Part shown: positions 21,793 to 41,502 of the stretch, piece after piece
Numbering within the stretch: the stretch's first letter is position 1
Layout: each line of letters begins with the position of its first letter
Source of the DNA: Marivita sp.
Lineage (GTDB): Bacteria > Pseudomonadota > Alphaproteobacteria > Rhodobacterales > Rhodobacteraceae
DNA: 64,000 nucleotides
Direction: 5' to 3'
NCBI RefSeq assembly: GCF_022763305.1
Contig: NZ_JALEGT010000017.1
Span: 1 to 64,000 of the forward strand
Program-made: the position numbers and the translations under genes
Notes under the pieces: model-generated
Database searches by the model: none
Told to the model about the DNA's origin: nothing
Seen by the model: the letters and a program-made list of their open reading frames with translations, nothing else

Positions 21793-23313
21793 TCACATGA
21801 AATGGGTCTGGTCCATGCGTACAGGCGCGTCTGAAACCGGGGCAAAATCCATCCGGTCCAAGACATCCAACTGTATGTCTACACCCGGCGCGACCTCGAT
21901 CAAGGCAAGGCCGTCCTCGGTCAGCCGGAAGACCGCGCGTTCAGTGACATAAAGTACCTGCTGCCCCTGCCGCATGGCCTGCGCGCCGGAGAACGTGATC
22001 TGATCCACGCGCCGCACGAATTTTCGCACGTCTCCATGACGCTCGATGGTCAGATTGCCATCTCCCGATTTGATGCGGGTGCCCTTGGCATCGAAGGTTC
22101 CGACAAAGACCACCGTCCGGGCGTTCTGCGCAATATCGATGAATCCGCCGGGACCAACAGGCATACCGCCCAGCTTGGACGCGTTCACATTGCCCGCCGC
22201 ATCCACCTGTCCAAAGCCGAGAAACGCGATATCCAGTCCACCACCCGCGTAAAAATCAAACTGCGAGGGCCCGTCGATCATACAAGAGGCATTCTGCGCA
22301 TAGCCGAACAGGGAACCCGTCAAAAGTCGTCCGCCATAAGTGCCGTGTTCGATCGTCTGGTAATAGAGATGCTGTTCACCGCGTGCAGCCACAATGGTGG
22401 CAATCTCGTCAGGAATGCCAAAGCCATAGTTGACGATGGCCCCCTCGCGCAGCTCTGTCCGGGCGCGGTTCGCCACGATACGCCGCGCCGAAAAGGCAGG
22501 CACGTCCGGTGCCGGAAGCGGCGCCCGCTTCTGGCCCGAGATCGAGGGATCATACGCAATCTCGTAGCCCTGCGTCTGCTCCGGATCGACGACAATGGCA
22601 TCGACGATAGCCGCCGGAACCCGAACCTGCCGAGCGCCGAGCGTGCCCATGGGCACCTTTTCCCGAACCTGAAAGATCACCGTGCCACCGGAATTGTGAA
22701 CCGCCGCCGCAACCGCATAAGTGTCTACGTTGGCAGGCTCTTCATCAAGTGAGATATTGCCTTCCTCGTCTGCGATGGACCCTTTGAGAAGACAGGCATG
22801 GATCGGAAAAGGGAAATACCGGAGATATTCGCGCCCGTCGATCTGGATGACCTCGCACAGCGCATCCTGAGCCGCGTCATTCATGCGACCGCCATCTACA
22901 CGAGGGTCGATGAACGTACCGAGACCGACATGGGTGATCAGCCCCGGACGACCTGCTGCAATCTCGCGCATGAGCTGCATGGCCACACCGCCCGGTAGGA
23001 CATGTGCTGCAATCTCGTTCCTGGCGGCCATTTCCTGCATTTTCGGCGACCAGACCCAGTGCCCACCGATCACCTTTCGCACCATCCCAGCATGCGCGAA
23101 ACGTCCGACTCCGGTGCCTTGCCGATTGCCGATGCCAAGCGCGTGAACCAGTGTCAGGTTGCGAGGATGCCCGGTCTGGAGGAAACGCGCTTCGATGGCT
23201 TCCTGCAGGCACATCGCTTCGCACAGACCGCCGCCGCCACCGGTGATGGACAGCGTTGCATCGTCCGGAACCAGCGCGACCGCTTCGGCGGCCGACATGA
23301 ACTTGGATTTCAT
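21793..23313 (-). CDS. Acyl-CoA:carboxylate CoA-transferase (family I, YdiF-like)
   Basis: This 506-residue protein is a fused two-half CoA-transferase that moves CoA between acids without ATP. The catalytic Glu322 is in YYQTIEHGTYGG, and the N-terminal GGGGGLCEA loop and LGTFIDPR segment fit the family. Its ATG overlaps the TGA of the upstream acyl-CoA dehydrogenase (TGATG), so the two are co-translated. It may activate the acid handled by the dehydrogenase, or a ring-opened acid; the acyl group is unknown. Confidence 0.9.
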   Translation of the reverse strand: MKSKFMSAAEAVALVPDDATLSITGGGGGLCEAMCLQEAIEARFLQTGHPRNLTLVHALGIGNRQGTGVGRFAHAGMVRKVIGGHWVWSPKMQEMAARNEIAAHVLPGGVAMQLMREIAAGRPGLITHVGLGTFIDPRVDGGRMNDAAQDALCEVIQIDGREYLRYFPFPIHACLLKGSIADEEGNISLDEEPANVDTYAVAAAVHNSGGTVIFQVREKVPMGTLGARQVRVPAAIVDAIVVDPEQTQGYEIAYDPSISGQKRAPLPAPDVPAFSARRIVANRARTELREGAIVNYGFGIPDEIATIVAARGEQHLYYQTIEHGTYGGRLLTGSLFGYAQNASCMIDGPSQFDFYAGGGLDIAFLGFGQVDAAGNVNASKLGGMPVGPGGFIDIAQNARTVVFVGTFDAKGTRIKSGDGNLTIERHGDVRKFVRRVDQITFSGAQAMRQGQQVLYVTERAVFRLTEDGLALIEVAPGVDIQLDVLDRMDFAPVSDAPVRMDQTHFM

Positions 23314-24488
23314 CAGGCGCTCCACGGATCGAAAAGCTCGGTACTGCCCTTGAGCAGCGCGCGCGCAACGACGCTGCGATGCACCTCGCTGGCACCGTCG
23401 AAGATCCGATAAATTCGGGCATCACGATAATAGCGCTCTATGGGCAGGTCCTTGGAATAACCCATACCTCCGAAAATCTGCACCGCGCGGTCCACGACAC
23501 GTCCAAGCAACTCGGCCCCTTGCACCTTGAGCGCGGAAATATTGGCGCGTGGATCGCGACCCGCGTCGATATCCGCTGCACATTGCCAAAGCGCCATACG
23601 TGTTGCGTTGATCTCCATCGCACTGTCGGCCAGCATCTGCTGGACCATCTGGAAATCTCCCAAAGGCTGTCCGAACTGGTGACGGTCGCGCGCGTGATCA
23701 AGCGTCATCTGCAAGATCTTTGTGGACTTGCCCACAGCACGGGCCGCCACCTGGGCCAGCCGCACGCGCCCCAACACCGACAGCGCCAGCTTGAGCCCTT
23801 CGCCTTCGCGCCCCAAGAGATGCTCGTCCGTCAGCTCAACCTCGTCGAAATGCAGATCAAGATGTGAGGTGCCGCGGATGCCCATCATCTGCTGATCCCG
23901 GCCAAGGCTGAAACCGGGCATCCCCTTGTCGACCATGAACATGGAAATCCCGCGATGACCCTTGTCGGGATCGGTGACGGCGGTCACGACGAAGAAATCA
24001 GAAAACGCCCCGTCCGAGATGTAGTGCTTCATGCCCGACAGCACCCATGTATCACCCCGGCGTACGGCCTTTGTCTTGATCCCTGCCGCATCAGACCCGG
24101 CACCGGGCTCTGTAAATGCGATTGAGCAGACGCGTTCGCCCTTGACGGCGGGTGTCAACCAACGGTCAATCTGCGCGCCTTCGCAAGACAGAAGAACCTC
24201 GTACACATTTCCAAAGGCGCGGCGGATGAGGATATCGGTCGTATGCCCGAACTGTTCCTCACACATTATCTGATCAAGGCAGGACAGCCCGCCCCCGCCA
24301 TACTGCTCGGGAATGTTCATGCCATAAAGGCCAAGCGCCGAGGACTTCTCGAAGATCGCCTGCGCAACCTTGTCGGACAGGGTGCCCGTTTCCTCGATCT
24401 CTTGTTCCAGCGGAGCAAGCTCGTTCTTGATGAAGTCGCGCACCGTGTCGACAAGCAGGCGTTGTTCGTGGCTGATCTCAAAGGTCAT
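23313..24488 (-). CDS. Acyl-CoA dehydrogenase
   Basis: This 391-residue flavoprotein adds a double bond alpha-beta to an acyl-CoA and passes electrons to ETF. FAD-binding segments CSIAFTEPGAGSDAAGI and WVLSGMKHYISDGAFSDFFVV are visible, as is the C-terminal GGMGYSKDLPIERYYRDARI. At the usual catalytic-base position the motif reads IFDGASEVHR, with Asp instead of Glu, as in ACAD10/11-like members. It lies between a NIPSNAP gene and the CoA-transferase on one strand. Confidence 0.92.
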   Translation of the reverse strand: MTFEISHEQRLLVDTVRDFIKNELAPLEQEIEETGTLSDKVAQAIFEKSSALGLYGMNIPEQYGGGGLSCLDQIMCEEQFGHTTDILIRRAFGNVYEVLLSCEGAQIDRWLTPAVKGERVCSIAFTEPGAGSDAAGIKTKAVRRGDTWVLSGMKHYISDGAFSDFFVVTAVTDPDKGHRGISMFMVDKGMPGFSLGRDQQMMGIRGTSHLDLHFDEVELTDEHLLGREGEGLKLALSVLGRVRLAQVAARAVGKSTKILQMTLDHARDRHQFGQPLGDFQMVQQMLADSAMEINATRMALWQCAADIDAGRDPRANISALKVQGAELLGRVVDRAVQIFGGMGYSKDLPIERYYRDARIYRIFDGASEVHRSVVARALLKGSTELFDPWSA

Positions 24489-24509
24489 GACGGCTCTCTT
24501 GGAGGTGGT

Positions 24510-25088
24510 TCATTGCAGGGGGGACAGGTGCAGTGGCCTGAGGATTTCGTGCGACACGATGCCGGGTGCATACGTACAAAGCCTCTCGAACGACCCCGTC
24601 GCAAGCGTCACACGGGTGCCCGGCGCAGGGCCGGACAGAACGGTGAACGCCCCAAGACACTCGCCAGCTTCATGGATGTTTTCTCCAAGGCTCAGCGCGT
24701 GCAGTCCGCGCGCGAACATGGGGGCGTCGGATGTCTGATCGGGATGCGCAGTCTTGCGACGCTCGACAACGCGAGACAGAAGGTCGGACCCTTCATCAAG
24801 CCGAAGGATGCGACTTTCCTGTGCAACCACGTCAGCAAAAGCCTTGGGCACAAAATCGACCATCCATTCCGTCTCGGAGAGTAGGCCCGCACGACAGGCG
24901 TCGCGCTCTTCAAAGCTGTCATAGGCCCAGAGATGCTCAATGCGGTTGAGGCGACCGCTTTCGACCTGCCAATAGCCGATCATCGGGAGGTGGCGTGTCA
25001 CTCTCGACACCCCGAAGGTCCTGAAGAAATCCAGATATACCGGGGCCTTGCCCGGTTTCAGGTCGTAGGTTCGCAATTCGAAGAACAC
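24510..25088 (-). CDS. NIPSNAP-family protein (first copy)
   Basis: This 192-residue protein opens with MFFELRTYDLKPGKAPVYLD, the hallmark of the NIPSNAP/ferredoxin-like fold (dimeric alpha-beta barrel). Two such repeats are expected; the second begins near FARGLHALSL. Bacterial members are small cytoplasmic proteins of mostly unknown role, often next to catabolic flavoproteins. Here it stands 21 bases upstream of the acyl-CoA dehydrogenase and downstream of an AraC gene. A second NIPSNAP gene lies at 40.1 kb in the same island. Confidence 0.85.
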   Translation of the reverse strand: MFFELRTYDLKPGKAPVYLDFFRTFGVSRVTRHLPMIGYWQVESGRLNRIEHLWAYDSFEERDACRAGLLSETEWMVDFVPKAFADVVAQESRILRLDEGSDLLSRVVERRKTAHPDQTSDAPMFARGLHALSLGENIHEAGECLGAFTVLSGPAPGTRVTLATGSFERLCTYAPGIVSHEILRPLHLSPLQ

Positions 25089-25155: not shown

Positions 25156-26085
25156 TCAGAAATTTGTATTGGACGATCCATCCGCAACCACACGCCGCGT
25201 CGTCGCGGCGTTGGCGCGGAAGGTTCCGGGTGGACAACCGACGCGCTGTGAAAAGAAGCGGTTGAAATAGGCGGGATCGTCATATCCGATGGCATGCCCG
25301 ATCTCGGCCACCGTCATTTCGGTATATAGCAGATTGCGTTTTGCTTCGATCACGATGCGCTCATAAAGCACCTCGGACGCTGTCTTGCCCGCGCGCGCTT
25401 TGCACGCCGCGTTGAGCCGTTGCGGAGACACGCCCAAGACATCTGCGTAGTAACCCAACGACTTTTCCGTCCGAAACCCGCGCTCAAGCGCCTCGCGATA
25501 GCGCGACACGAGTTCGTAATCCCGGTCACGATGCGCGGGACCACTTTCTGCCTGGCTTTCGCTGACGCGCAGTAGCGACACTAGGACCGACAGGAAATGC
25601 GCCCGGAGCGCCATCCGTCGGCCCGGGCTGTTGCTGTTGGTCTCCAGCAGCACTTCATCCATGGCATGCCGCACATTGGCGAGCACTTGCTCATCCGTGA
25701 TGGGATAACTGCCAGCGCGCCGAGTGGCATCAATGAGCCGAGGGTCGTCGCGCGCAATGCTGTTGACAAAGGACGTCGCAGCAGTGATCACCCGCCCCTC
25801 GGTGCCCGGGCGAAACAGAATCTCGTGGATCATCCCGGCAGGTTGCACCACAAATGAATGCGCGGTGGCGTCGTACCGGCCCTCCTCGATCTGAAAGACA
25901 GCGCCCCCCTCGGAAATCCACAGGATCTGCGTGTGGTCCGGGTGGACGTGGGGATGAATCGTCCAATCATGCCGTTTGGATCGCTCGCGGATCGGCTCGA
26001 CATGCAGCGTGTCAAGATCATCGTCCTGCTGCTCATCGCCATAAAGATAAAAGCTCGGGATTGGCACGCTTTGCCGTCTGGTCAC
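25156..26085 (-). CDS. AraC-family regulator, PobR-like
   Basis: This 309-residue regulator has an N-terminal cupin sensor (SVPIPSFYLYGDE ... HDWTIHPHVHPDHTQIL) and a C-terminal double HTH (MTVAEIGHAIGYDDPAYFNRFF). The opening VPIPSFYLYG and the HDW-x2-HPH pattern resemble AraC-type PobR regulators of 4-hydroxybenzoate genes. I chose the GTG at 26085 because AGGAGG lies eight bases before it; the open frame continues to 26439 without family sequence. It faces the first KstD-like gene and probably controls it and its own operon. Confidence 0.82.
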   Translation of the reverse strand: MTRRQSVPIPSFYLYGDEQQDDDLDTLHVEPIRERSKRHDWTIHPHVHPDHTQILWISEGGAVFQIEEGRYDATAHSFVVQPAGMIHEILFRPGTEGRVITAATSFVNSIARDDPRLIDATRRAGSYPITDEQVLANVRHAMDEVLLETNSNSPGRRMALRAHFLSVLVSLLRVSESQAESGPAHRDRDYELVSRYREALERGFRTEKSLGYYADVLGVSPQRLNAACKARAGKTASEVLYERIVIEAKRNLLYTEMTVAEIGHAIGYDDPAYFNRFFSQRVGCPPGTFRANAATTRRVVADGSSNTNF

Positions 26086-26209
26086 GATCAAGCCCTCCTC
26101 GCTCACGCGTCCAACTGGAACGAATAGTCCAATATATTCCGCACCCTGTCCATTGGCGATTTGGCACGCACACGGCGTAATCCGGCTCAGTTTCGGAGGG
26201 AGGAGCACC

Positions 26210-27922
26210 ATGAAGACGCGGCCGGATCGAACGGAAACCCACGACATCCTCGTGATTGGATCGGGGGCCGGCGGCATGTCCACGGCAATCACCGCCAAAA
26301 AGCACGGGGCCTCCGTCGCCATCCTCGAGAAAGAGCCGGTCTTTGGCGGCACGACAGCGTTCTCGGGCGGTGTTCTGTGGATCCCGCTGAACAAGCACGC
26401 CAAAGCGGCGGGCGTGGACGACAGCCGCGAGGCCGCCATCCGCTACATGAAAGAGGAAACCGGCAATTTCTATTCCGCCGATGCGGTCGAAGCGTTCATC
26501 GACACCGGTCCCGAGATGGTCGACTGGTTTGAACGCGAGACAAGCATGAAATTCGTCCCGACACTCTATCCCGATTATCACCCCGACGTGCCGGGTGGGG
26601 TGGATGTCGGTCGATCGATCCTCGCGGCGCCTTTTGACACCTCGGTTCTGGGCGAAAATCTCAAGCGGCTGAAATCACCCCTCGCAACCATCACCTTTAT
26701 GGGGATGATGTTCAATTCCTCGAATGCCGACATCAAACATTTCTTCAACGCAACCAAGAGCCTGAAGAGCTTTGGCTATGTGACCAAGCGGATGCTCAAA
26801 CATTTCGGAGAGGTTGCCCGCTATGGCAAGGGAGTGCAGGTGACCAGCGGGAATGCTCTGGCCGCGCGACTTGCAAAAAGCGTGTTTGATCTGGGTATCC
26901 CGATCTACACCGAAACGCCGGCAGACGAACTGATGGTTGAAGGAGGCCGCGTTGTCGGCGTGCGCTCGGGCAACAGCGTTCTGCGGGCGCGCAGAGCTGT
27001 CGTGCTGGCGACTGGTGGCTTTGCCCATGACGTGGAAAAGCTGAAGAAGGCCTATCCCCATCTGCGGCGCGGCGGCGAACATTTCTCCCCCGTGCCCCAA
27101 AGCAATACCGGAGACGGCATACGTCTGGCCGAAGCCGTGGGTGGCCACGCTCCGATCGAATTCAGCGACACCTCGGCCTGGATGCCGGTGTCGAAAGTCC
27201 CGATGGGCGGTGGAACCTTCGGCGCGTTCCCGCATCTGCTGGACCGCTACAAGCCCGGCATCATCGCCGTGCTGAAATCCGGCAAACGTTTCACGAACGA
27301 AAGTGAAAGCTATCATGATGTCGGCGCGGCATTGATGCGCGCCTGTGACGGAGAGACGGAAACAGCGGCCTGGCTGATCTGTGATCATCCGACGATCCGC
27401 AAATACGGTCTTGGCTATGCCAAACCGGCCCCTGTGCCGCTGGGGCGACACATCTCGAACGGGTACATCCAGAAAGGCGATACGCTGGCAGAGCTTGCGC
27501 GCAAGACCGGTATTGACCCCGCCGGACTGGAGGCGACGGTCGCCGCCTATAATGGACCCGCCGCACAGGGCGAGGATCCCGAATTCGGGCGCGGGACAAC
27601 CAGCTTCAACCGATATCTTGCCGACCCCGAGAACCGTCCGAACCCGTGCGTCGCTCCGATCGGCAAAGGGCCTTACTATGCGCTCAGGATCATTATGGGC
27701 GACCTCGGCACATTCGACGGTCTGCGCACGGATGTGTCGGGTCAGGTGCTCGACAAGGAAGGGCAGCCAGTGTTGGGCCTCTACGCGGTGGGCAATGACC
27801 GAGCGTCCATCATGGGCGGCAATTATCCCGGCGCCGGGATCACTCTGGGTCCTGCCATGGTCTTCGGCTACATCACCGGTCGGCACCTTGCCGGGATCAG
27901 CGTCAAGGGTGCGGCTGCATGA
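26210..27922 (+). CDS. KstD-like FAD dehydrogenase (copy 1)
   Basis: This 570-residue flavoprotein belongs to the fumarate reductase/3-ketosteroid delta-1-dehydrogenase superfamily. The FAD loop GSGAGG is at 17-22, followed by EKEPVFGGTTAFSGG. Near the C-terminus the pattern ASIMGGNYPGAGITLGPAMVFGY keeps the KstD Tyr and Gly that act on the enone. Such enzymes desaturate a ring next to a ketone. GGAGGGAGG precedes the ATG. It overlaps the next SDR gene by four bases, giving an alcohol dehydrogenase plus desaturase pair. A steroid substrate is not supported by any other gene here. Confidence 0.88.
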   Translation: MKTRPDRTETHDILVIGSGAGGMSTAITAKKHGASVAILEKEPVFGGTTAFSGGVLWIPLNKHAKAAGVDDSREAAIRYMKEETGNFYSADAVEAFIDTGPEMVDWFERETSMKFVPTLYPDYHPDVPGGVDVGRSILAAPFDTSVLGENLKRLKSPLATITFMGMMFNSSNADIKHFFNATKSLKSFGYVTKRMLKHFGEVARYGKGVQVTSGNALAARLAKSVFDLGIPIYTETPADELMVEGGRVVGVRSGNSVLRARRAVVLATGGFAHDVEKLKKAYPHLRRGGEHFSPVPQSNTGDGIRLAEAVGGHAPIEFSDTSAWMPVSKVPMGGGTFGAFPHLLDRYKPGIIAVLKSGKRFTNESESYHDVGAALMRACDGETETAAWLICDHPTIRKYGLGYAKPAPVPLGRHISNGYIQKGDTLAELARKTGIDPAGLEATVAAYNGPAAQGEDPEFGRGTTSFNRYLADPENRPNPCVAPIGKGPYYALRIIMGDLGTFDGLRTDVSGQVLDKEGQPVLGLYAVGNDRASIMGGNYPGAGITLGPAMVFGYITGRHLAGISVKGAAA

Positions 27923-28701
27923 GTTGGCTGGGTCTGGAAGGCAGGGTCGCGGTTGTCACCGGCGCTGGAGGCGGCATCGGCAAGGCAATTGCTGCCGCGT
28001 TTGCCGAACAGGGTGCGCAGGTCGCCTTGCTTGACATCAATGCCGAGACCGTCGCCGCCTCCGCTTCAGACATCGGTGGTCTTGGGATTGCCTGTGATGT
28101 CACGGAGTCTGCAAGCGTCGCCGCCGCCCTCTCGCGTGTCGAGACCGCGTTCGGACACGCCGATATTCTCGTCAACAATGCAGCCTATCTGAGCCCGGGT
28201 GCACTGGACGAGGTCGAGGTCTCGGCCTGGCAAAGGATGCTCGACGTCAACCTCACAGGCTACCTGCGCTGCGCGCAAGCTTTTGGAAAGGCGATGCTCT
28301 CCCGGGGCAGCGGCGCGCTTGTGCATGTGGGCTCCATCTCGGGTCACAACCAACAGGCGTTTTCGAATGCCTATTCCGCGTCCAAGGCCGGAGTGTCGAT
28401 GCTCTCACGGCAACTCGCCTTCGAATGGGGGCCACGCGGCGTGCGGTCGAACGTGGTGGCGCCGGGCCTGGTCCGCACACCGCTCTCAGAAGCGTTCTAT
28501 GCGGACCCCAAAACCAAGGCGGCGCGCGAAGCGGTTGTACCACTTCGCCGGATTGGACAGGTTTCGGACATTGCGGACGCCGTGCTTTTCTTCGCATCGG
28601 ACCGGGCCAGCTATATCAGCGGTCAGGAGGTGATCGTCGATGGCGGGTATAATCAGACCTTGATGAGCCATGTGCCGCGGCCGGGCTACTCGGATGACTA
28701 G
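27919..28701 (+). CDS. Short-chain dehydrogenase/reductase (SDR)
   Basis: This 260-residue classical SDR has the cofactor loop GAGGGIG at 15-21, NNAA at 87-90, and catalytic Ser139, Tyr152 and Lys156 (AYSASKAG). Asp39 after the second strand suggests NAD rather than NADP. It likely interconverts a ring alcohol and ketone for the overlapping KstD-like enzyme. Its stop overlaps the start of a decayed second SDR. Confidence 0.92.
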   Translation: MSWLGLEGRVAVVTGAGGGIGKAIAAAFAEQGAQVALLDINAETVAASASDIGGLGIACDVTESASVAAALSRVETAFGHADILVNNAAYLSPGALDEVEVSAWQRMLDVNLTGYLRCAQAFGKAMLSRGSGALVHVGSISGHNQQAFSNAYSASKAGVSMLSRQLAFEWGPRGVRSNVVAPGLVRTPLSEAFYADPKTKAAREAVVPLRRIGQVSDIADAVLFFASDRASYISGQEVIVDGGYNQTLMSHVPRPGYSDD

Positions 28702-28864: not shown

Positions 28865-29299
28865 CTACGTCGCCAGAAGCCGGTACATCGCCTGCACCGC
28901 GACAGGGTATCCCTGTGCGCCCAAACCCGCGATCACGGCGGTCACACCCTGCGACATGACAGAATGCCGATGCGCTGCGTCCCGGGCATGGATGTTCGAG
29001 ATGTGCAATTCGATCACCGGGCCGTCAAAGGCCTTGAGTGCATCGAGTATCGCGATCGACGAAAAGGACCAACCCGCCGGGTTGATGATGATGCCACCGC
29101 CCGTCTCGCGCGCCGCGTGGATGAGGTCGATCATCACGCCTTCATGGTTGGTCTGGTGAAACTCAAGCCGACCGGATGCGACGTCCCGGCACATCGCCTC
29201 GATATCTGCCAGAGTTGTGGTTCCGTAGATATGTGGCTCACGCACCCCGAGAAGATCGAGGTTCGGACCATTCAGAACATGGACGGTGGCATGGCTCAC
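28865..29299 (-). CDS. aroQ: Type II 3-dehydroquinate dehydratase family protein with altered active site
   Basis: This 144-residue protein has the AroQ/QutE fold and matches its length. Conserved residues are Asn10 (LNGPN), Arg20 and Tyr25 (REPHIYG), Asn73 (INP), Glu97 and His99 (ELHISN). Two usual active-site residues differ: the His of the xTHTS loop is Phe79, and the Arg of the ARExFRR segment is His110. It may act on 3-dehydroquinate in a catabolic path or on a related hydroaromatic ketone. The start is GTG at 29299 in a GTGA overlap with livF; it is the last gene of a nine-gene minus-strand operon. Confidence 0.85.
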   Translation of the reverse strand: MSHATVHVLNGPNLDLLGVREPHIYGTTTLADIEAMCRDVASGRLEFHQTNHEGVMIDLIHAARETGGGIIINPAGWSFSSIAILDALKAFDGPVIELHISNIHARDAAHRHSVMSQGVTAVIAGLGAQGYPVAVQAMYRLLAT

Positions 29300-30024
29300 G
29301 CGGTTTCTTCCTCGTCGATATGTCCACCAAGGAACAGGTGGCCCACCTTGGGATCGTTCAGAAGGACATCGGCACGATCATGCATCCGGGTCTGCCCGAG
29401 TTCCAGCACGATCCCGAAATCGGACATCGCAAGAGCGGATTTCGCGTTCTGTTCCACCATCAGGATCGTCACACCCTGATCCCGCAACCGTTGGAGCGTG
29501 CGGAAGACTTCTTGAACAAGACTGGGCGACAAACCGATTGAGGGCTCGTCAATCAGGATCAACTTGGGATCGAGAAGAAGCGCCCGCGCCACCTCGAGCT
29601 GTTTCTGCTGCCCCCCGGACAATTCGATCGCCTTGCGGTCGCGGAATTCGCGCAGCATCGGAAACTGGTCCATCACCTGTTCGATACGTGCCCGGACCTT
29701 GGCCTGATCCCGCGACGTGATCCCGCCCAGTTCGAGATTGTGATATACCGACAACTGCGGCACCACGTTTCGCCCTTGCGGCACATAGGTGACGCCGTGG
29801 TCGATCATCTGTTTCGGGCTCTGGCCGGTCACGTCTTTTCCATCAAGAAGCACCTGGCCTGAACTGATGTTCAAGAGACCGAAAATCGCCTTGAATACAG
29901 TCGACTTGCCTGCGCCGTTGGGTCCGATCACTGTGGTAATCGAGGCCTTGGGGATCGTGAAGGATGTACCGTTCAGGATCGTGATCTTGCCGTAGCCGCC
30001 GTAGATATCCTTGAGTTCCAGCAT
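29296..30024 (-). CDS. livF: Branched-chain-type ABC transporter ATPase (LivF)
   Basis: This 242-residue ATPase has Walker A GPNGAGKS (about 34-41), the signature LSGGQQKQLEVARALL and Walker B KLILIDEPS. It pairs with LivG to power uptake by the LivHM permease at the inner membrane. HAAT-family importers of this kind often carry aromatic or alicyclic acids in catabolic clusters. It lies three bases after livG and overlaps aroQ. Confidence 0.93.
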   Translation of the reverse strand: MLELKDIYGGYGKITILNGTSFTIPKASITTVIGPNGAGKSTVFKAIFGLLNISSGQVLLDGKDVTGQSPKQMIDHGVTYVPQGRNVVPQLSVYHNLELGGITSRDQAKVRARIEQVMDQFPMLREFRDRKAIELSGGQQKQLEVARALLLDPKLILIDEPSIGLSPSLVQEVFRTLQRLRDQGVTILMVEQNAKSALAMSDFGIVLELGQTRMHDRADVLLNDPKVGHLFLGGHIDEEETA

Positions 30025-30027
30025 CCC

Positions 30028-32694: not shown

Positions 32695-32707
32695 TTGATC
32701 CGTCAGA

Positions 32708-33860: not shown

Positions 33861-34718
33861 TCAGTTTCCAAGATGCAGCAGTGCATCCACCAAGAGTGCT
33901 TCTTGCGCCTTGAACATCCCGAGCCCCGCCATGGTCGCGCAGCCCTTCGACCGGGCCGCGACGATAAACGGAGACGCTTCGGGTTTCGTGATCGGGCAGG
34001 CCGCGAACTGACCTGCATGAAGCCGGTCCACCAGGACCGGCATCGGGTCTCCGTCGCGCATGCCCAACGGCGTCGCGTTTGCGATGACGTCGAACCCGGT
34101 CGGGTCCTCCGTTCCAACAGAAAGCCGACCTGCAAACGGTGTCTCAAGCCGTGCGATCAGCCCGTCACGCCGGCCGGCATCAACGTCATGCACCGCAAGA
34201 TGAGCTGCGCCCTGCAGCAGAAATTCGTACGCAATAGCCGATCCAGCTCCGCCCGCGCCCACAAGCAGAACCCGTTTGCCTTCGATGGCGCACCCTTCGG
34301 CACGGATGCCATTCACATACCCCATGCCGTCGGTGTTGTCGCCGATCCAGCCGCCTTCCCGGCGCCGCAGGACGTTGGCGGCACCGGCATAGCGGGCGCG
34401 CTCGGTCACCTCGGCGCAATAGTCCATCATGGCCTGTTTGTGCGGCACCGTGATCACGAGACCCGGCGCATTCCGCAGACTTTGCAGGCCCGCCATGAAG
34501 ACCGGAATATCCTTGGGGCTCACATGACCCGGCACGACCACGGTGTTGACTCCGCGCGCAGCAAAACGACGCGTGAGCAGCGACGGCGACTTCACCTGGG
34601 CGATCGGGTCGCCAATCACGAAGACAACCTGTGTCTCGCCGTCCAAACCAGCCACCCTTACACCGCCCTGATCCGAGGTGCAGGTTGCCGATTGCACTTT
34701 TGCCATTGCGCTGGCCAT
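33861..34718 (-). CDS. AroE-like dehydrogenase (shikimate dehydrogenase family) with altered substrate motif
   Basis: This 285-residue protein has the AroE fold. The catalytic pair is present: Lys94 in VPHKQ and Asp130 in DNTDG; the cofactor loop is GAGGAGS at 154-160. The substrate-carboxylate motif usually written HSxSP reads QVKSP (41-45), so the first Ser is Val42. This predicts a substrate other than plain shikimate. The ATG at 34718 starts the protein after a 148-bp gap from the epimerase gene. The neighbouring aroQ, Liv importer and KstD-like genes suggest it oxidises a ring hydroxyl of a hydroaromatic acid. Confidence 0.85.
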   Translation of the reverse strand: MASAMAKVQSATCTSDQGGVRVAGLDGETQVVFVIGDPIAQVKSPSLLTRRFAARGVNTVVVPGHVSPKDIPVFMAGLQSLRNAPGLVITVPHKQAMMDYCAEVTERARYAGAANVLRRREGGWIGDNTDGMGYVNGIRAEGCAIEGKRVLLVGAGGAGSAIAYEFLLQGAAHLAVHDVDAGRRDGLIARLETPFAGRLSVGTEDPTGFDVIANATPLGMRDGDPMPVLVDRLHAGQFAACPITKPEASPFIVAARSKGCATMAGLGMFKAQEALLVDALLHLGN

Positions 34719-34866: not shown

Positions 34867-35766
34867 TCATGCCGAGGCCCGGCTGCGGTAATGCGCAAGA
34901 GTCGCTGCAATACCATCGGCAATGTCGGTTACAGGCAGACCCGCCAACTCTTGAGGCAAAGGGCTGTTGGCAAGGTCAGGCGGGCTGCGCAACGGCACCC
35001 CGGTGATTTCGACCTTGGCATCCGGCACGTGGTCAAGAAGCGCCGAGCGAAACGCTTCCATTTCCGCGCTTTCGCCGCACAGGTTGTAGGCTTCGGCTCC
35101 GCTCGTTTCGCCTAACAGCGCCGCAACCATGTATCTCGCTACATCGAACACATGCACGAAACCGACACGGCCGGTAAACGCAATCCGGGCAGGCTTGCCT
35201 TCGAGGGCAGAGGAAATGGCAATGGACGGACCTGCGGCAATACCGGAACTGCGTCCGGGACCGTAAACAACGTAGGGGCGGAACCCGACTGACGTGATAC
35301 CATGATCGAGATGATAGGCCCGCGCCATGCCTTCGATGGCCAACTTGTGTGCACCATAAAGCGAAAGCGGCTTCGGGTGCACCGGATCGTCATAGCCAAA
35401 GACGGCTGAGGACGAGACATATACCAGCCGCGCCATGCCCTGTTCGCGCGCAGCTTCGAACACATGGGCTGCCCCCATCACGTTGATCTCGGCTGACCGG
35501 ATGGGCGCTTCCGCGGCCGCCATCGTCAGGACACCGGCAAGATGCACGATTCCATCGCATCCCTGTGCTGCCTGCCGGACAGACCCGTCGGCAATATCGC
35601 CCTGAACAATCTGCACCTTGCTCGAAAGCCCGGGCCGCGCGTCGTCGAGCACGGCCGGATTGGGCACGGCGTCGAAGACCCGAACGTCACACCCGCGGTT
35701 CGCCAAACCGTCCACGACCCAACGGCCGATAAAGCCGGTGCCACCCGTTACAAGAACCCGTTTCAT
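34867..35766 (-). CDS. NAD-dependent epimerase/dehydratase family protein (extended SDR)
   Basis: This 299-residue enzyme has the cofactor loop GGTGFIG (8-14), SSSAVFG and the catalytic Tyr-Lys pair in YGAHK. The family acts on sugar nucleotides and on many small alcohols and ketones; no nucleotide-sugar gene is near, so a role in ring-alcohol oxidation or epimerisation is more likely (inference). Its ATG overlaps the stop of the second KstD-like gene by four bases. Confidence 0.88.
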   Translation of the reverse strand: MKRVLVTGGTGFIGRWVVDGLANRGCDVRVFDAVPNPAVLDDARPGLSSKVQIVQGDIADGSVRQAAQGCDGIVHLAGVLTMAAAEAPIRSAEINVMGAAHVFEAAREQGMARLVYVSSSAVFGYDDPVHPKPLSLYGAHKLAIEGMARAYHLDHGITSVGFRPYVVYGPGRSSGIAAGPSIAISSALEGKPARIAFTGRVGFVHVFDVARYMVAALLGETSGAEAYNLCGESAEMEAFRSALLDHVPDAKVEITGVPLRSPPDLANSPLPQELAGLPVTDIADGIAATLAHYRSRASA

Positions 35767-37457
35767 GCTGCGCTCCGAGCCACCGCGTCCATTGCGGCGA
35801 TATATCCAAAGGTGATGGCCGGCCCGATCGTGATGCCGGGCCCGGGATAGACGCCGCCCATGATTGACTGCATGTCATTTCCGCAGGCGTACAGGCCTGA
35901 AATGGGCTGGCCATCGCCATCCAGAAGCCGTGCTTTTTCGTCCGTCAGAAGACCCGTCGCGGCACCAATATCCGCAGGCCAAAGCGTGACGGCATAGAAT
36001 GGCGCTGTTGCGATGGGACCAAGCGTCGGGTTGGGCGCGTGCGAAGGATCTCCGTTGTGTCGCTCGTAAGCGGTCTCGCCCCGGTGGAAGGCTGTATCGA
36101 GACCGGTTTTGGCAAAGACGTTCATCTGCGCGACCGTGGCTTCAAGCCCGGCCGCATCAATACCAAGCGCCGATGCCAGCGCGGTCAGGCTGGGAGCTTC
36201 GGTCAGATAGCCGTCTTTGACAAGTGCGGCCTTGCCCATGCCGCCTGGACGAACCAGACCGAGACCGTAGGACTTGAGCCCCACCGCATCGGTGATCAGA
36301 TACGCCGGGATCGTCCCCGTCTCATACTGCGCAAGTGCGAATTCATGGTAGGATCGGCTTTCATTTGTGAACCGCTTTCCAGTTTTGCCCACGCAGACCG
36401 TGCCTGGCTTGGAGCGGTCAAAGACGAAATGCGGGAAAATGGCCATGCTGCCATCCGGGCGTGTTTTTTTCGACACCGGAGCCATGAAGACATGGCTGGC
36501 GCCACCTTCCCCATAGCGCGCGCCCAGCTCGAGAACGATGTCATGCAGCGCACCAGTATGGCCGGGCGCAGAGGGGCTGTGTTCTGGCACCGGATCAGGG
36601 AGCAGTTCTGCCCGCCGCGTCAGATGACGGGCAAATCCGCCTGTTGCCAAGATCACACCCCCGGTTGCGCACAGCGTCTTGCCGTCATCAAGCGTCAACC
36701 GGGTGCCGTCTTGCTTCGATGCAAGTCCGGTCACTCTGGTGTTCATCCGAAGCTCGACCCCAGCCTCGCGCGCGGACAACAGGAGCCGACCAATCAGAGC
36801 ATTGCCCATAACCATCCGCGCAGAGCGCCCGTATCGCAGCCGGTCCCTCGCATAGCCGCCGACAAGGCGCACCGCATGCCGGAGGGACGTCATGGATCGG
36901 GTCATACCCAGCAAGTGCGTGATGTCGGTCCGGTCGACCATCAATCCGCCCAGAATGGTGAATTCAGGGATCGGCGGACGGACAAGAGCCATGTCCTTTC
37001 CCAAGACAGACGCATCAAAGGGAAGTGGCTCTATCGCCCGACCCTTGACGGCGCTGCCATCCAACTCGCTCAGGTAATCCGGATGGCGCGGATAGGCGCG
37101 GAACTGGGTCTTGGTGCAGTCCATCAAGGTGTGAATTGCGGCAGGCGCGTTGGCGACGAAGGCTTCCCGCAAGGCGCGCGGAGAGCGGTTTCCAACGGCA
37201 TTATCCAGATAACGCAGAACTGTCTCAGGGCTGTCCTCCGCGCCGACCGTTGCTGCAAGCCGGGTGTTCGGCGCCCAGACCGTGCCTGCGGAATATGCGG
37301 ACGTCCCGCCAACATAATCCGTGCTTTCAACAAGAAGGGTCCGCACGCCCTGCAACGCGGCAAAGGTCGCGGCGGCAAGCCCGCCCGCGCCTGCTCCGAT
37401 CACGACGACATCATATGTGCCGCTGTCTGCGATGATGGCCTCCCCCGATTTCCCCAC
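35763..37457 (-). CDS. KstD-like FAD dehydrogenase (copy 2)
   Basis: This 564-residue flavoprotein has the FAD loop GAGAGG (22-27) and ESTDYVGGTSAYSAGTVW. The C-terminal pattern SIMGGVYPGPGITIGPAITFGY keeps the KstD Tyr and Gly. It heads the minus-strand operon that runs through the epimerase, AroE-like, Liv and AroQ genes. The start is a GTG at 37457 with no strong ribosome site; a 7-2-7 palindrome lies five bases upstream. It differs clearly from copies 1 and 3, so it probably acts at another ring position or on another substrate. Confidence 0.87.
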   Translation of the reverse strand: MGKSGEAIIADSGTYDVVVIGAGAGGLAAATFAALQGVRTLLVESTDYVGGTSAYSAGTVWAPNTRLAATVGAEDSPETVLRYLDNAVGNRSPRALREAFVANAPAAIHTLMDCTKTQFRAYPRHPDYLSELDGSAVKGRAIEPLPFDASVLGKDMALVRPPIPEFTILGGLMVDRTDITHLLGMTRSMTSLRHAVRLVGGYARDRLRYGRSARMVMGNALIGRLLLSAREAGVELRMNTRVTGLASKQDGTRLTLDDGKTLCATGGVILATGGFARHLTRRAELLPDPVPEHSPSAPGHTGALHDIVLELGARYGEGGASHVFMAPVSKKTRPDGSMAIFPHFVFDRSKPGTVCVGKTGKRFTNESRSYHEFALAQYETGTIPAYLITDAVGLKSYGLGLVRPGGMGKAALVKDGYLTEAPSLTALASALGIDAAGLEATVAQMNVFAKTGLDTAFHRGETAYERHNGDPSHAPNPTLGPIATAPFYAVTLWPADIGAATGLLTDEKARLLDGDGQPISGLYACGNDMQSIMGGVYPGPGITIGPAITFGYIAAMDAVARSAA

Positions 37458-37461
37458 GAAT

Positions 37462-37509: not shown

Positions 37510-37588
37510 GTCTTTCAAGATTTAAATAAACTTCCAATTCTTGATCGTGCCACCTATAATTCGTGGTGAACCGATCAAAGGCGTCCGC

Positions 37589-38395
37589 ATGTCAAGCGTT
37601 CTGGAAAAGTCACTGGCCATCCTCGAACTGATGGTGGAACACCCCGAGGGCCTTCAGGTCTCTGCCATCGCACGCCAACTCGACATGCCGGTCTCCGGCG
37701 TTCATCGCCAACTGCGTGAACTGGCCCGCCTGGGCTATGTCCGGCAAGCGCGTGATCAGGGCGATTACACCCTGACGCTGAGGCTTGCGGCATTGGGGCT
37801 TGGCTTTCTCGGCCGGTCCGGTGTGACCGACATCGCCCAGCCAATCCTTGACCGGCTGGGCAGCGTGTCCGGCGAATTGATCCGGCTGTCCGTGCTGGAA
37901 AACGGAGGCCTTACCTGGGTGGCCGTCGCACAGGGCGCAACGGTCGGCCTGCGCTACGATCCGGGCCGCGAACAGGGCATGCGTGTGCATCCCGCCTCGA
38001 CCGCCGGCGGACAGGCATTGCTGGCCACGCTGAGTGATGATGAGATCCTCTCGGTTGTGGGCGACACCGGTTTGCGGCCGCCCGGTATGCCCGCCACGTC
38101 AAAAGCGCCGTCGACCATCGCCGAATTGATGCGCATCATCGAAGAGACGCGACAGCGAGGCTACTCTGTCGCCATAGACAGCTACATCGAAGGCATGGGC
38201 GCAATGGCGGTTGCAGTTCGGGCCGGCGGAACGCTTGACGGCCCGGTCATCGGGTGCCTGTCCATTGCCGGGCCCGCAGTGCGATTTCCGACGCCACGGA
38301 TGGAAGAATTGGCTCCTTCACTCTTTGACGCTGCCGCCGAATTGGGCGTGGCAGCACCCGCCTCTCATTTCTTTGCCGGGATCGCGAAGGGATGA
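37589..38395 (+). CDS. IclR-family transcriptional regulator
   Basis: This 268-residue regulator has a winged HTH at about residues 4-65 (LQVSAIARQLDMPVSGVHRQLRELARLGYV) and an IclR effector domain with HPASTAGGQALLA and GYSVAIDSYIEGMGAMAVAV. IclR proteins commonly control aromatic-acid catabolism. The ATG at 37589 fits the usual MSSVLEKSLAILE opening. It is divergent from the long minus-strand operon and overlaps the next flavoprotein gene by four bases, so it probably controls both. Confidence 0.9.
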   Translation: MSSVLEKSLAILELMVEHPEGLQVSAIARQLDMPVSGVHRQLRELARLGYVRQARDQGDYTLTLRLAALGLGFLGRSGVTDIAQPILDRLGSVSGELIRLSVLENGGLTWVAVAQGATVGLRYDPGREQGMRVHPASTAGGQALLATLSDDEILSVVGDTGLRPPGMPATSKAPSTIAELMRIIEETRQRGYSVAIDSYIEGMGAMAVAVRAGGTLDGPVIGCLSIAGPAVRFPTPRMEELAPSLFDAAAELGVAAPASHFFAGIAKG

Positions 38396-40086
38396 GCACG
38401 TGCGACGTGCTCGTTATTGGCTCGGGCGCCGGAGGGTTGAGCACGGCGGTCACCGCAGCGCATTTTGGCGCGCGGGTCATTGTCGTCGAGAAACACCATC
38501 AGGTCGGGGGCACGTCCGCCTGGTCGGGTGGCTGGCTCTGGATCCCGCGCAACCCACTTGCGGTCGCGGCAGGGATCGTCGAAGACGACGAGGCCCCGAT
38601 GCGCTACCTGCGCGCGGAGTTGGGCAACCGCGCGTCCGATCCGCGTCTGCCGGTCTATCTTCAGGTCGGTCCAGAAATGGTCCGCTTCTTCCGGGATCAC
38701 ACGGCCGTCGAATGGATTGACGGAAATCGTGTTCCGGATTTTCACATGAGCGAAGGCGCTCGGGACGGCGGCCGCTCGGTCTGTGCCGCACCGTTCGATG
38801 GACGGGAACTGGGTGAGTGGGCCGCGCGGTTGCGTCCTCCTCTGGAGGTCGCCTCGCTTTGGGGCATGGGCATCGCAGCCGGTCCGGACATGGCACATTT
38901 TTTCAATGCCAAACGTCACCCTGGATCGGCCCTGCATGTGGCCAGAAGGATTGGACGTCATGCTGCCGATGTGGTCCGCAATGGGCGGGGCAGCCAGTTG
39001 GTCAATGGCAATGCGCTGGTGGCGAGACTCCTGAAGTCAGCCATTGATCTGGGTGTCGACATTCGGCTGTCAGCCGCCGCCGAAGCCCTGATCGAGTGCA
39101 ACGGCAGAGTGATCGGTGCGCGTGTGGCCGGACAAGACCTGCAGGCCAGTTCTGGTGTTGTGCTGGCTGCCGGTGGCTTTCCGCACGACAGGGGGCGGAT
39201 CGCCGCGCTCTTTCCGCATGCTCCGACGGGCACCGAACATCATTCCGCGGCCCCCCCGGAAAACACCGGAGATGGGCTGCGCCTGGCCGAAACGCTCGGG
39301 GGGCAATGCGACGAAGAGTTGACCGAACCCGGCGCATGGGCCCCTGTCTCGCTTGTCCCGACACGGGCGGGCGTTGCGCGGTTCCCGCACCTGGTGGAGC
39401 GGGCGAAACCCGGCTTCATACTTGTCGGCCCGGACGGGCGACGTTTTGCGAATGAAGCGAACAGCTACCATGACGTCATGAAAGCGCTGTTTCGCACCTA
39501 TTCCGGTACACCACACGCATGGCTGGTCGGCGATGCTGCAGCTGTTGCACGTTTCGGCATTGGCGCGGTGAAACCTTGGCCTTTCCCCAAGACACGGCAC
39601 ATTGCATCGGGGTATCTCCACAAGGCGAAAACGATTGCGGAACTTGCGCAGTTCATCGGCCTCCCCAACACTGTCCTTGCGCAAACCCTCAAGCGGTTCA
39701 ACTCACATGCCGCGCGCGGCGAGGACCCGGATTTTGGACGCGGCACGTCGCCCTACAACCGTATTCAAGGCGATGGTGGACAAAGCGTGCGCCCCTTGTA
39801 CAGAAGCCCCTTCTATGCCGTGAAAATCGTGCCGGGATCGCTGGGGACTTTTGTTGGCCTGAAGACCACAGCCGGCGCTCAGGTTCTTGATAGATCGAAC
39901 CGGCCAATCCCCGGTCTTTATGCAGTGGGCAATGACGCGGCGTCGATTATGGGCGGACATTACCCGTCGGGCGGGATCACGCTCGGGCCAGCCATGACAT
40001 TCGGCTACATCGCCGGTCGCGCTCTGTCCGGACAACCGGTCCGAGGGCTTGATCAGAAAAAGGAGCAAGCATTTGAAGTTTTATGA
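38392..40086 (+). CDS. KstD-like FAD dehydrogenase (copy 3)
   Basis: This 564-residue flavoprotein has the FAD loop GSGAGG (9-14) and EKHHQVGGTSAWSGGWLWIP, close in style to copy 1. The C-terminal pattern SIMGGHYPSGGITLGPAMTFGY keeps the Tyr, but the PGxG turn of the others is PSGG. It begins inside the iclR stop (ATGA) and its end overlaps a NIPSNAP gene. Copies 1 and 3 are both near a NIPSNAP gene, which hints at a working pair. Confidence 0.88.
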   Translation: MSTCDVLVIGSGAGGLSTAVTAAHFGARVIVVEKHHQVGGTSAWSGGWLWIPRNPLAVAAGIVEDDEAPMRYLRAELGNRASDPRLPVYLQVGPEMVRFFRDHTAVEWIDGNRVPDFHMSEGARDGGRSVCAAPFDGRELGEWAARLRPPLEVASLWGMGIAAGPDMAHFFNAKRHPGSALHVARRIGRHAADVVRNGRGSQLVNGNALVARLLKSAIDLGVDIRLSAAAEALIECNGRVIGARVAGQDLQASSGVVLAAGGFPHDRGRIAALFPHAPTGTEHHSAAPPENTGDGLRLAETLGGQCDEELTEPGAWAPVSLVPTRAGVARFPHLVERAKPGFILVGPDGRRFANEANSYHDVMKALFRTYSGTPHAWLVGDAAAVARFGIGAVKPWPFPKTRHIASGYLHKAKTIAELAQFIGLPNTVLAQTLKRFNSHAARGEDPDFGRGTSPYNRIQGDGGQSVRPLYRSPFYAVKIVPGSLGTFVGLKTTAGAQVLDRSNRPIPGLYAVGNDAASIMGGHYPSGGITLGPAMTFGYIAGRALSGQPVRGLDQKKEQAFEVL

Positions 40087-40684
40087 AATCTCCACGCTTT
40101 CAACGGTGATTTTCGGGGCCGCCGCCGCCACCAAAGGCATCGAGGACTGGGTCGCACAGGGCGCAGGCACGCTTTTTGGCGCATGGTTCTCGGATATCGG
40201 ATCGCTGAACGAGGTTTACCTGCTGCGTGGCTATGACTCGGCAGACGACATGCTGGGAGAACGCGAAAGATTGGCACGCTCCGACAACCCGTTTGGCTGT
40301 CTTGAACAATTGGTCAATTACCGGATCGACAGCTATCGGCCTCTGGATTTCATGGGCCCGATCGAGACCGGGGCGCACGGCCCGGTCTATGAGCTGCGCA
40401 GCTATCGAATGAAGCTGAACGGATTGATGCCGACCATGGAGAAGTGGGCCGCGGCCTTGCCGAAACGCACTGCGTATTCGACCTGCAGCATTGCGATGTA
40501 CGGACTCGATGGCTCCCCCCGCCTGACGCAGGTTTGGCCCTATGCCAGCCTTGCTGAGCGGAGCAAAGCGCGCGGTCAATCCATCTCTGATGGCAATTGG
40601 CCACCGCAAGGCGGTCCGGACTGGCTGACGCCGGAGATGACGTCGACCATTGCTTTGCCTCTGGGCTTTTCACCATTGAAATAA
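40073..40684 (+). CDS. NIPSNAP-family protein (second copy)
   Basis: This 203-residue protein has two ferredoxin-like repeats; the second begins GPVYELRSYRMKLNG, the classic NIPSNAP opening. I chose a TTG start at 40073 because AAGGAG lies at good spacing and LKFYEISTL is the natural opening; it overlaps the flavoprotein gene by 14 bases. The biochemical role is unknown. Tight overlap suggests it binds or assists the KstD-like enzyme or its product. Confidence 0.82.
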   Translation: MKFYEISTLSTVIFGAAAATKGIEDWVAQGAGTLFGAWFSDIGSLNEVYLLRGYDSADDMLGERERLARSDNPFGCLEQLVNYRIDSYRPLDFMGPIETGAHGPVYELRSYRMKLNGLMPTMEKWAAALPKRTAYSTCSIAMYGLDGSPRLTQVWPYASLAERSKARGQSISDGNWPPQGGPDWLTPEMTSTIALPLGFSPLK

Positions 40685-40692
40685 GGACCGCG

Positions 40693-41502
40693 ATGTCACG
40701 CATCTATTCCATGGCCTATCTGACGGCCAACGGACTGCCCCCCGTCGAAGCAGTGACACTTGCGGCCCGGCTTGGGTTCGACCGGATCAGTTTCCGTCTG
40801 CTCCCCGCCGGGCCGGGCGATACGCCGCCGCCGCTTTTGTCCGACGATCACCTCGTCCGAGAGGTTATGGCGGCACTGGCGGACACGGGCCTGACGATGG
40901 CCGATGCCGAGATGATCCGGCTCGACGCGGACCCCGATCTTGATCGGTTTCGCCCCTTTCTGGCGCGGTGCGCGCAGATGGGTGCGCGCCACGTTCTCGT
41001 CGCAGGCGACGATAAAGATCGCTCCCGGATCATCGACACCTACGGCCGACTTTGCGAATTGACATGGGACTACGGCCTCACGGCGGATCTCGAATTCATG
41101 CCGTGGACCGGCATCCGCAATATTGCCGATGCACGCGAGCTGGTAGAGGCTGCAGCCCATCCTGCGGCGGCAATCCTGTTCGACTGCCTGCATTTCGACA
41201 GGTCGGACAGCACACTGGAAGACATCGCAAGCGTGCCTTCAGACATGTTCAATTACGTCCAGATTTGCGATGGCCCGGTGCCCTATGACCCGGATGGAAC
41301 AGCGATGATGGTGTTGGGCCGGACCGCACGCCTGATCCCCGGCGATGGCGGCATCGACATTCCTGCCATCATCGCTCGCCTGCCGAAACAGGTTCCTGTC
41401 AGCGTGGAAGTGCCGAACGTAGACATCGCATCGAAGGTCGGGGTCGCGCATTTGGTCAAGCGCGCCCTTGAAGCGACCAAGGCAATGATGGGTGACGCCT
41501 GA
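40693..41502 (+). CDS. Sugar-phosphate isomerase/epimerase-like TIM-barrel protein
   Basis: This 269-residue xylose-isomerase-like TIM barrel has candidate metal ligands Glu in TADLEFMPW, Asp in AAILFDCLHFDRSD, and Glu in VSVEVPN, with a VQICDGP segment in between. The family includes epimerases, 2-keto-myo-inositol dehydratases and 3-dehydroshikimate dehydratases. Given AroQ- and AroE-like genes in the same island, a ring dehydratase leading to an aromatic acid is a fair guess, but isomerase is equally possible. It closes the plus-strand iclR operon. Confidence 0.82.
   Translation: MSRIYSMAYLTANGLPPVEAVTLAARLGFDRISFRLLPAGPGDTPPPLLSDDHLVREVMAALADTGLTMADAEMIRLDADPDLDRFRPFLARCAQMGARHVLVAGDDKDRSRIIDTYGRLCELTWDYGLTADLEFMPWTGIRNIADARELVEAAAHPAAAILFDCLHFDRSDSTLEDIASVPSDMFNYVQICDGPVPYDPDGTAMMVLGRTARLIPGDGGIDIPAIIARLPKQVPVSVEVPNVDIASKVGVAHLVKRALEATKAMMGDA

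Follow-up and report, generated by a model that had tools for sequence, protein, structure and literature searches.

Which compound is broken down by a gene island that encodes three flavoproteins resembling 3-ketosteroid dehydrogenase (KstD) together with altered copies of AroE and AroQ? The island (positions 21793-41502) lies in a 64,000-nucleotide stretch of DNA from Marivita sp. (GCF_022763305.1; hereafter the window), on a 164-kb contig (C48) of the 4.43-Mb draft genome. Judged by its gene content and by its conservation among proteobacteria, the cell probably uses it to import a hydroaromatic or alicyclic (polyhydroxylated cyclohexane) acid and to break it down by aromatisation to protocatechuate or 4-hydroxybenzoate. 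A first-pass annotation, made from the letters alone, had read the locus as a catabolic island that oxidises and desaturates a ring, feeds protocatechuate or 4-hydroxybenzoate and does not act on steroids. The comparative evidence supports this much; the dihydroxycyclohexanecarboxylates that the annotation gave as an example are candidate substrates.

Gene content and operon layout

Pfam hidden Markov model (HMM) and NCBIfam scans located all genes named beforehand at their expected places (scores in bits, with model cut-offs where they apply):

21793..23325, - strand: CoA-transferase, one-chain, FadX-like (PF01144, 77; NF052271, 351, below 750)
23313..24488, - strand: acyl-CoA dehydrogenase (PF00441, PF02770, PF02771; 0 of 22 NCBIfam cut-offs reached)
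24510..25088, - strand: NIPSNAP protein 1 (PF07978, 75)
25156..26439, - strand: AraC-family regulator, HpaA-like (PF12833; TIGR02297, 148, below 275; true start probably further inside)
26210..27922, + strand: KstD1, KstD-like FAD desaturase (PF00890, 329, E 8e-98; the open reading frame (ORF) opens at 26153, start at ~26210 likely)
27919..28701, + strand: short-chain dehydrogenase/reductase (SDR) (PF13561; subfamily NF005559, 230, above 215)
28865..29299, - strand: AroQ-type dehydroquinase with two altered pocket residues (NF003806, 180, above 171; TIGR01088, 145, below 170)
29296..33835, - strand: Liv-type ABC importer, LivF-LivG-LivM-LivH-LivK (PF00005, PF02653, PF13458)
33861..34715, - strand: AroE-family dehydrogenase, V/T subfamily (PF08501, 65; ORF opens at 34922)
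34867..35766, - strand: NAD epimerase/dehydratase-family oxidoreductase (PF01370, 133)
35763..37457, - strand: KstD2, KstD-like FAD desaturase (PF00890, 246, E 1e-72; NF009477/PRK12843, 774, above 758)
37541..38395, + strand: IclR-family regulator (PF01614, PF09339; PcaR/PcaU model TIGR02431, 94, below 285)
38392..40086, + strand: KstD3, KstD-like FAD desaturase, anchor of the conserved module (PF00890, 324, E 3e-96)
40049..40684, + strand: NIPSNAP protein 2 (NIPS2), two fused domains (PF07978, two stretches)
40693..41502, + strand: putative TIM-barrel dehydratase/isomerase, xylose-isomerase-like (PF01261, 62; metal site of 3-dehydroshikimate dehydratase)

The scans bear out the inventory of the first-pass annotation (three KstD-like flavoproteins, two NIPSNAP proteins, SDR, epimerase, CoA-transferase, acyl-CoA dehydrogenase, Liv importer) and its four interlocking operons around the AraC and IclR regulators. 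Operon 1 (-) comprises the CoA-transferase, acyl-CoA dehydrogenase, NIPSNAP 1 and AraC genes, operon 2 (+) KstD1 and the SDR, operon 3 (-) AroQ, LivFGMHK, AroE, the epimerase and KstD2, and operon 4 (+) IclR, KstD3, NIPS2 and the TIM barrel. Across the four, same-strand genes overlap by 1-38 bp at eight joints, the start behind the 38-bp overlap being uncertain; the likelier starts of uncertain ORFs are ~34715 (AroE), ~40693 (TIM barrel) and ~26210 (KstD1). Of three NIPSNAP genes in the genome, the island holds two. The scanned genes of the region include no P450 gene and, in agreement with the annotation, no steroid gene; the search for steroid genes covered this region alone.

Conservation of the module

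Is this gene set a chance assembly or a conserved unit? One genome per species was scanned with a KstD3 alignment, and the loci studied are the best 80 of 494 relatives, so the counts apply to the nearer relatives of KstD3, among which Pseudomonas is over-represented. Of the 80 loci, 79 have an AroE-family gene no more than 10 kb away, the exception (L125) being a match that starts at a contig end, and the same distance holds a further KstD in 76 and the TIM barrel in 61. NIPSNAP genes accompany 71 loci (65 detected by tblastn, the rest through a recurrent ORF family, one member of which was confirmed by Pfam at 129 bits). Counted per genus or metagenome-assembled genome label, as assigned by hand from record titles, the figures are 38/39 for AroE, 38/39 for the TIM barrel and 37/39 for at least two KstDs. 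As a rough yardstick, AroE would be expected within 10 kb at ~1-2% of places, since the 4.4-Mb genome itself holds three AroE-type genes. The loci span alpha-, beta- and gammaproteobacteria, with hosts that include Pseudomonas, Rhizobium, Paracoccus, Bradyrhizobium, Paraburkholderia and enterics, and many bacteria of soil, plants and water share the gene set. The co-occurrence of KstD-like, NIPSNAP and AroE-like genes, proposed earlier as a check, is a conserved linkage.

Moreover, the island is collinear, at 56-90% identity, in Pseudoprimorskyibacter insulae (G097), another genus of the same family, where the order is TIM barrel, NIPS2, KstD3, IclR, KstD2, epimerase, AroE, LivKHMGF, AroQ, SDR, KstD1, AraC, NIPSNAP 1, acyl-CoA dehydrogenase and CoA-transferase. 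This synteny, together with the 80 loci, rules out a chance assembly. The acyl-CoA dehydrogenase and CoA-transferase pair recurs beside the module in two further loci (L091 and L099, 61-68% identity). Eight annotated plasmid regions were picked by hand from the matches, mostly because KstD2 and AroE matches shared a record; six carry a V-type AroE with KstD, NIPSNAP and TIM-barrel genes, the exceptions being pRM41A, with no AroE match, and a Thioclava plasmid, with only a QSDH-like (quinate/shikimate dehydrogenase-like) AroE.

The altered AroE subfamily

Another question is what kind of enzyme the island AroE is. Housekeeping copies of AroE (contig C45) and AroQ (contig C100) are present elsewhere in the genome, so the island copies are extra. 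The island AroE belongs to the shikimate dehydrogenase superfamily by its PF08501 domain and its Lys65 and Asp102, and it scores 135 bits against the biosynthetic AroE model TIGR00507, below the cut-off of 200. The first-pass annotation had called both island enzymes altered, and each indeed differs from its housekeeping copy at two positions. In AroE these are the substrate contacts Ser14 and Tyr215 (S14V, Y215T), which the second AroE of the window (13773..14729) keeps. By E. coli AroE, we take Ser14 and Tyr215 to contact the carboxylate and Lys65 and Asp102 to be catalytic.

When 99 AroE-family rows were aligned to the housekeeping AroE, 85 had Val at position 14; 83 of these had Thr in place of Tyr215 and two a gap, and all 85 retained Lys65 and Asp102. 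Among the remaining 14 rows, 11 of quinate/shikimate or biosynthetic type keep Ser14 and Tyr215, and three fit neither pattern. Val14 alone is not unique: the family search gave 27 AroE-like loci, six others of which have it, and there only the G097 copy combines it with Thr215. In a tree of 105 rows, which was limited to eight Pseudomonas AroE_b rows and to sequences of 200-420 aa, a branch with 100/99 support splits 83 rows (island type and other AroE-like) from 22 of biosynthetic or QSDH type. The alpha/beta island clade (54 rows) has support of 100/99 and the Pseudomonas/enteric clade (13 rows) 100/98, while the union of both with one further row (68 rows) reaches only 96/70. At the level of sequence, the island AroE is thus a distinct subfamily, the V/T type.

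The AroE of the Pseudomonas version closely matches the solved structure 4k28 (430 bits; 'Shikimate dehydrogenase family protein'), presumably from P. putida KT2440, and shares its Q-V-K-S and V-V-T motifs; the module now gives 4k28 a likely pathway context. The second best PDB match is 5-ketofructose reductase, an AroE-family enzyme.

A different AroE type, with an S-F-R-A-P motif, stands with AroQ and TRAP genes and no KstD match in three other loci (L034, L040 and L041). The latter two also have a TIM barrel, and all three loci perhaps represent a sister pathway within this family.

AroQ, TIM-barrel and NIPSNAP proteins

Relative to the housekeeping AroQ, the pocket of the island copy has Phe instead of His, and His instead of the second Arg of the motif, at positions that we assume bind the C4 and C5 hydroxyls. 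Both changes recur in the G097 counterpart, whereas five Pseudomonas loci have canonical AroQ proteins. The island protein stays below the type II dehydroquinase model TIGR01088 and exceeds three broader PRK05395 subfamily models (e.g., 180 against 171).

The metal ligands of the TIM barrel (E166, D196 and E271, mapped via the QuiC of the window) are invariant in 32 of 32 aligned rows; in AsbF, according to PMC9324987, the ligands are E142, D172 and E253. The His, Gln and Arg that align with QuiC are also retained, with Gln replaced by His in a few rows. The score against the QuiC model NF042435 is 31, far from its cut-off of 1200, and the nearest folds of the predicted structure (mean predicted local distance difference test score, pLDDT, 89) are 2g0w, IolI and QuiC 5hmq. 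On this alignment, the protein carries the metal site of 3-dehydroshikimate dehydratase, and such catalysis is predicted for it.

By its fold matches, the predicted NIPS2 structure (pLDDT 91) is a double ferredoxin-like barrel; the best matches, at ~11-12% identity, are a metagenome protein without an assigned role, putative monooxygenases and heme-type barrel enzymes. The structure models of both proteins gave folds and pointed to no reaction.

The KstD-like flavoproteins

The catalytic Tyr/Tyr/Gly of KstD, which we take to be Tyr318, Tyr487 and Gly491 in KstD numbering, is retained in all 22 aligned rows (KstD1-3 and relatives). KstD2 is homologous to 3-ketosteroid 1-dehydrogenase (7p18, 4c3x; to 7p18 over nearly its full length), and its nearest solved relatives are 3-oxosteroid 1-dehydrogenases (7p18, 274 bits). 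In contrast, the island KstDs miss the cut-offs of the 3-ketosteroid 1-dehydrogenase equivalogs NF009478 and NF005882 (at best 472 against 789 and 433 against 788), and their neighbourhood is not steroid-like. The FAD-dependent oxidoreductase model PRK12843, which names no function, is exceeded by KstD2 (774 against 758), with KstD1 (554) and KstD3 (507) below it; KstD1 scores 727 against NF004789, whose cut-off is 747. Among models that name a function, the highest-ranked is that of 3-ketosteroid dehydrogenase for KstD2 (418, below 789) and that of ChcC2 for KstD1 and KstD3. The ChcC1 and ChcC2 equivalogs (NCBIfam NF053676 and NF053677) are not reached: the best island KstD scores 330 against 1000 for ChcC1, and KstD1 is best for ChcC2 with 543 against 900 (KstD3, 472).

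Links to protocatechuate and 4-hydroxybenzoate genes

A minority of the loci have quiC, pcaGH or pobA within or next to the module, which points to protocatechuate or 4-hydroxybenzoate as the product. After the module, Paracoccus sp. MA carries a QuiC-type fusion together with pcaGHCD and pobA. Downstream of the TIM-barrel gene, and with its orientation, stand pca genes in L074, L104 and L107 (~2 kb away in L104). A pobA gene adjoins NIPS2 in L096 (TIGR02360, 658, above 539) and KstD1 in L154 (495 on that model, below its cut-off; subfamily NF006091, 584, above 351) and lies downstream in L052. Five Pseudomonas loci (L070, L076, L077, L115 and L128) also hold a QSDH-type AroE, canonical AroQ and QuiC. 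L151 has the order KstD (KstD2-type), pcaHG, pcaB-like gene and V/T AroE, with a distant Liv importer. The transporters tested are AAHS/PcaK-like in L133 and ShiA-like in L055 and L052, all below cut-off, and the Pseudomonas-type IclR tested (L113) is PcaR/PobR-like at 277, below 285. The Marivita genome itself encodes pcaH (340, above 296) and pobA (627, above 539) elsewhere.

Locus L149 (36-18186) reads pca genes, two regulators, V/T-type AroE, LivKHMGF and QuiC, with no KstD match; it may be a minimal form of the pathway as it occurs in nature.

Proposed pathway and its alternatives

How might these parts work together? The Liv importer would take up the acid, and AroE, the SDR or the epimerase-type dehydrogenase would oxidise a ring hydroxyl to a ketone. 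The KstD-like flavoproteins would then strip hydrogens beside the ketone, each introducing one C=C bond. Water would be eliminated by the QuiC-like TIM barrel and, for 1-hydroxy compounds, by AroQ, while NIPSNAP may act as a small tautomerase or cofactor-free oxygenase. The ring would end as protocatechuate, or as 4-hydroxybenzoate via the KstD1-SDR branch, and these products would join the beta-ketoadipate pathway through pobA and pcaGH elsewhere in the genome. For dihydroshikimate, for example, oxidation at C3 and desaturation of C1-C2 would give 3-dehydroshikimate, the compound on which the neighbouring QuiC acts. As candidate substrates, dihydroshikimate-like acids agree with this set of enzymes, with cyclitols and plain cyclohexanecarboxylates as live rivals.

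The proposed route resembles the chc pathway of Sinomonas in its way of working, although the cut-offs of the chc families are missed (see below). Another of the closest known routes is quinate/shikimate catabolism (QuiA/QSDH, QuiB, QuiC), with which the island shares AroE-, AroQ- and QuiC-type enzymes, a protocatechuate outlet and acid importers. In contrast, its AroE and AroQ pockets are changed, and an operon of the classical type stands separately at 13773-19553; to our knowledge, the classical route has neither KstD nor NIPSNAP. The portion of PMC4213383 (quinate-grown Acinetobacter) available contains no mention of keto-/oxosteroid or FAD, and P. putida KT2440, according to PMC5449446, grows on quinate, shikimate and dehydroshikimate.

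Several findings weigh against the proposed conversion of a hydroaromatic acid. At a fourth KstD position (Tyr119-like), no more than 13 of the 22 rows have Tyr. The island AroE lacks the two presumed carboxylate contacts, Ser14 and Tyr215, so its substrate may not hold the acid group at the usual place, and a dihydroxycyclohexanecarboxylate is a candidate only. QuiC is near in only 9 of the 80 loci, at just 26% identity in one of them (L100), and pcaGH in only 4. Gfo/Idh genes occur in 43 of the 80, a combination with epimerase and TIM-barrel genes that also suits cyclitols, and on S. meliloti pRM41A an intradiol dioxygenase and a maleylacetate reductase stand beside a KstD2 relative. In a reverse test, this AroE was found at E < 1e-55 in 7 of 385 class-level genomes, with a KstD nearby in three (Marivita itself, G501 (L154) and G376 (L151)); no KstD was present in the stretch fetched from G188 (L149), the best one of G192 lies on another contig, and none was seen in G439 (a 7-kb contig) or G424. 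Around KstD3 relatives of 48-56% identity, AroE was absent from all seven regions inspected (L155-L161), one of which, L157, has NIPS2. The pairing of AroE and KstD is therefore confined to one KstD group, and V/T AroE can also occur without KstD.

Could the island instead be an oxidative branch of cyclitol catabolism, in which inositol-like polyols are oxidised (Gfo/Idh, epimerase, AroE), dehydrated by an IolE/IolI-like TIM barrel and aromatised by the KstDs to polyhydroxybenzenes such as hydroxyquinol? The Gfo/Idh genes, the IolI fold match, the 5-ketofructose reductase match, the loss of the presumed carboxylate contacts in AroE, and the dioxygenase, reductase and iolG of pRM41A speak for it. 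We nevertheless regard it as unlikely: AroQ keeps the residues of what we take to be its carboxylate side and is changed on the hydroxyl side, the transporters and regulator resemble acid-type proteins, albeit below cut-off, some loci have pca, pobA and quiC genes next to the module, and pcaGHCD, pcaF and a 3-oxoacid CoA-transferase are present on pRM41A as well.

On pRM41A (L053:5528-13512), NIPSNAP, type II dehydroquinase, maleylacetate reductase, intradiol dioxygenase, TIM-barrel and KstD2-relative genes adjoin pca genes, a set that suggests a related but different substrate.

A second alternative, which we consider rather improbable, is a proteobacterial counterpart of the chc pathway of Sinomonas cyclohexanicum, converting unsubstituted or mono-hydroxylated cyclohexanecarboxylates to 4-hydroxybenzoate. 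That pathway, reportedly described by Yamamoto and co-workers in 2021, is said to use ChcB SDRs and ChcC1/ChcC2 desaturases. As recounted in PMC9795900, the 4-oxo acid of the cyclohexanecarboxylate route is aromatised to 4-hydroxybenzoate by two consecutive desaturases. The island, for which we propose a similar order of ring hydroxyl to ketone followed by two desaturases, resembles it further in the at least two KstDs of 76/80 loci, in ChcC2 as first named model of KstD1 and KstD3, and in pobA beside KstD1 or NIPS2 or downstream. On the other hand, every chc cut-off is missed, including that of ChcB2 (NF053701), only the seventh best model of the SDR (188, below 350); the first named function of KstD2 is 3-ketosteroid dehydrogenase; no P450 was seen in the region; and the island has Liv import and quinate-pathway links, NIPSNAP, and an AroE subfamily, AroQ and QuiC-like TIM barrel without an evident role on a ring lacking several hydroxyls.

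Finally, a role of the KstD-like enzymes on bulky ring ketones such as steroids or terpenoids, with the AroE-like gene as a bystander oxidoreductase, is very improbable and was rejected on context, since against the 7p18 likeness and first named function of KstD2 stand the AroE partner in 79/80 loci, the shikimate- and aromatic-acid-type neighbours, and the lack of steroid genes among those scanned in the region, the only part of the genome searched for them.

Neighbouring genes in the window

Approximately 2 kb beyond the left border of the island, three features overlooked beforehand were found:

13773..14729, + strand: second AroE, quinate/shikimate-dehydrogenase type (PF08501, 82)
14784..17662, + strand: TRAP importer DctP-DctQ-DctM (PF03480, PF06808; DctQ by position only)
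17610..19553, + strand: QuiC-type 3-dehydroshikimate dehydratase/HPPD fusion (PF01261 and PF14696; NF042435, 659 over full length, below 1200)

With these genes, 12099-19553 is probably a classical quinate/shikimate operon, and a divergent Abhydrolase_3 esterase there might free quinate from chlorogenate-like esters. A GMC oxidoreductase (19676-21541) was excluded as an island member, there being no match in the G097 stretches fetched. Further right, 48676-56854 is likely a sugar-acid cluster (BNR-repeat protein, Fe-type alcohol dehydrogenase, protein of sugar-acid-kinase type (SBD_N/NBD_C), and PdxA-like, DHDPS-like and TAXI-TRAP genes called by sequence look only). Another aromatic-acid cluster occupies 57875-63962, with genes for an aldehyde dehydrogenase, a Rieske oxygenase of LigXa type, a Gfo/Idh oxidoreductase and an NMT1-like protein, which could be an enzyme of 4,5-dihydroxyphthalate-decarboxylase type.

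Implications

No description of this gene set as a pathway was found in the open literature searched, subscription papers lying mostly outside it; this is consistent with the first-pass annotation, which knew of none. A wider conclusion, which we advance tentatively as a real possibility, is that the module represents a widespread, undescribed proteobacterial pathway from saturated hydroaromatic acids (dihydroshikimate and related di- or trihydroxycyclohexanecarboxylates) to protocatechuate or 4-hydroxybenzoate, with a new catabolic subfamily of shikimate dehydrogenases, KstDs that do not act on steroids and an enzymatic pathway role for NIPSNAP. The parts of the module at present bear generic names such as FAD-dependent oxidoreductase, NIPSNAP and shikimate dehydrogenase. 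If the conclusion is true, several families at once would gain a function and the solved structure 4k28 a role, many 'shikimate dehydrogenase' annotations would be wrong, and plant and microbial ring acids would have an extra route into the carbon cycle.

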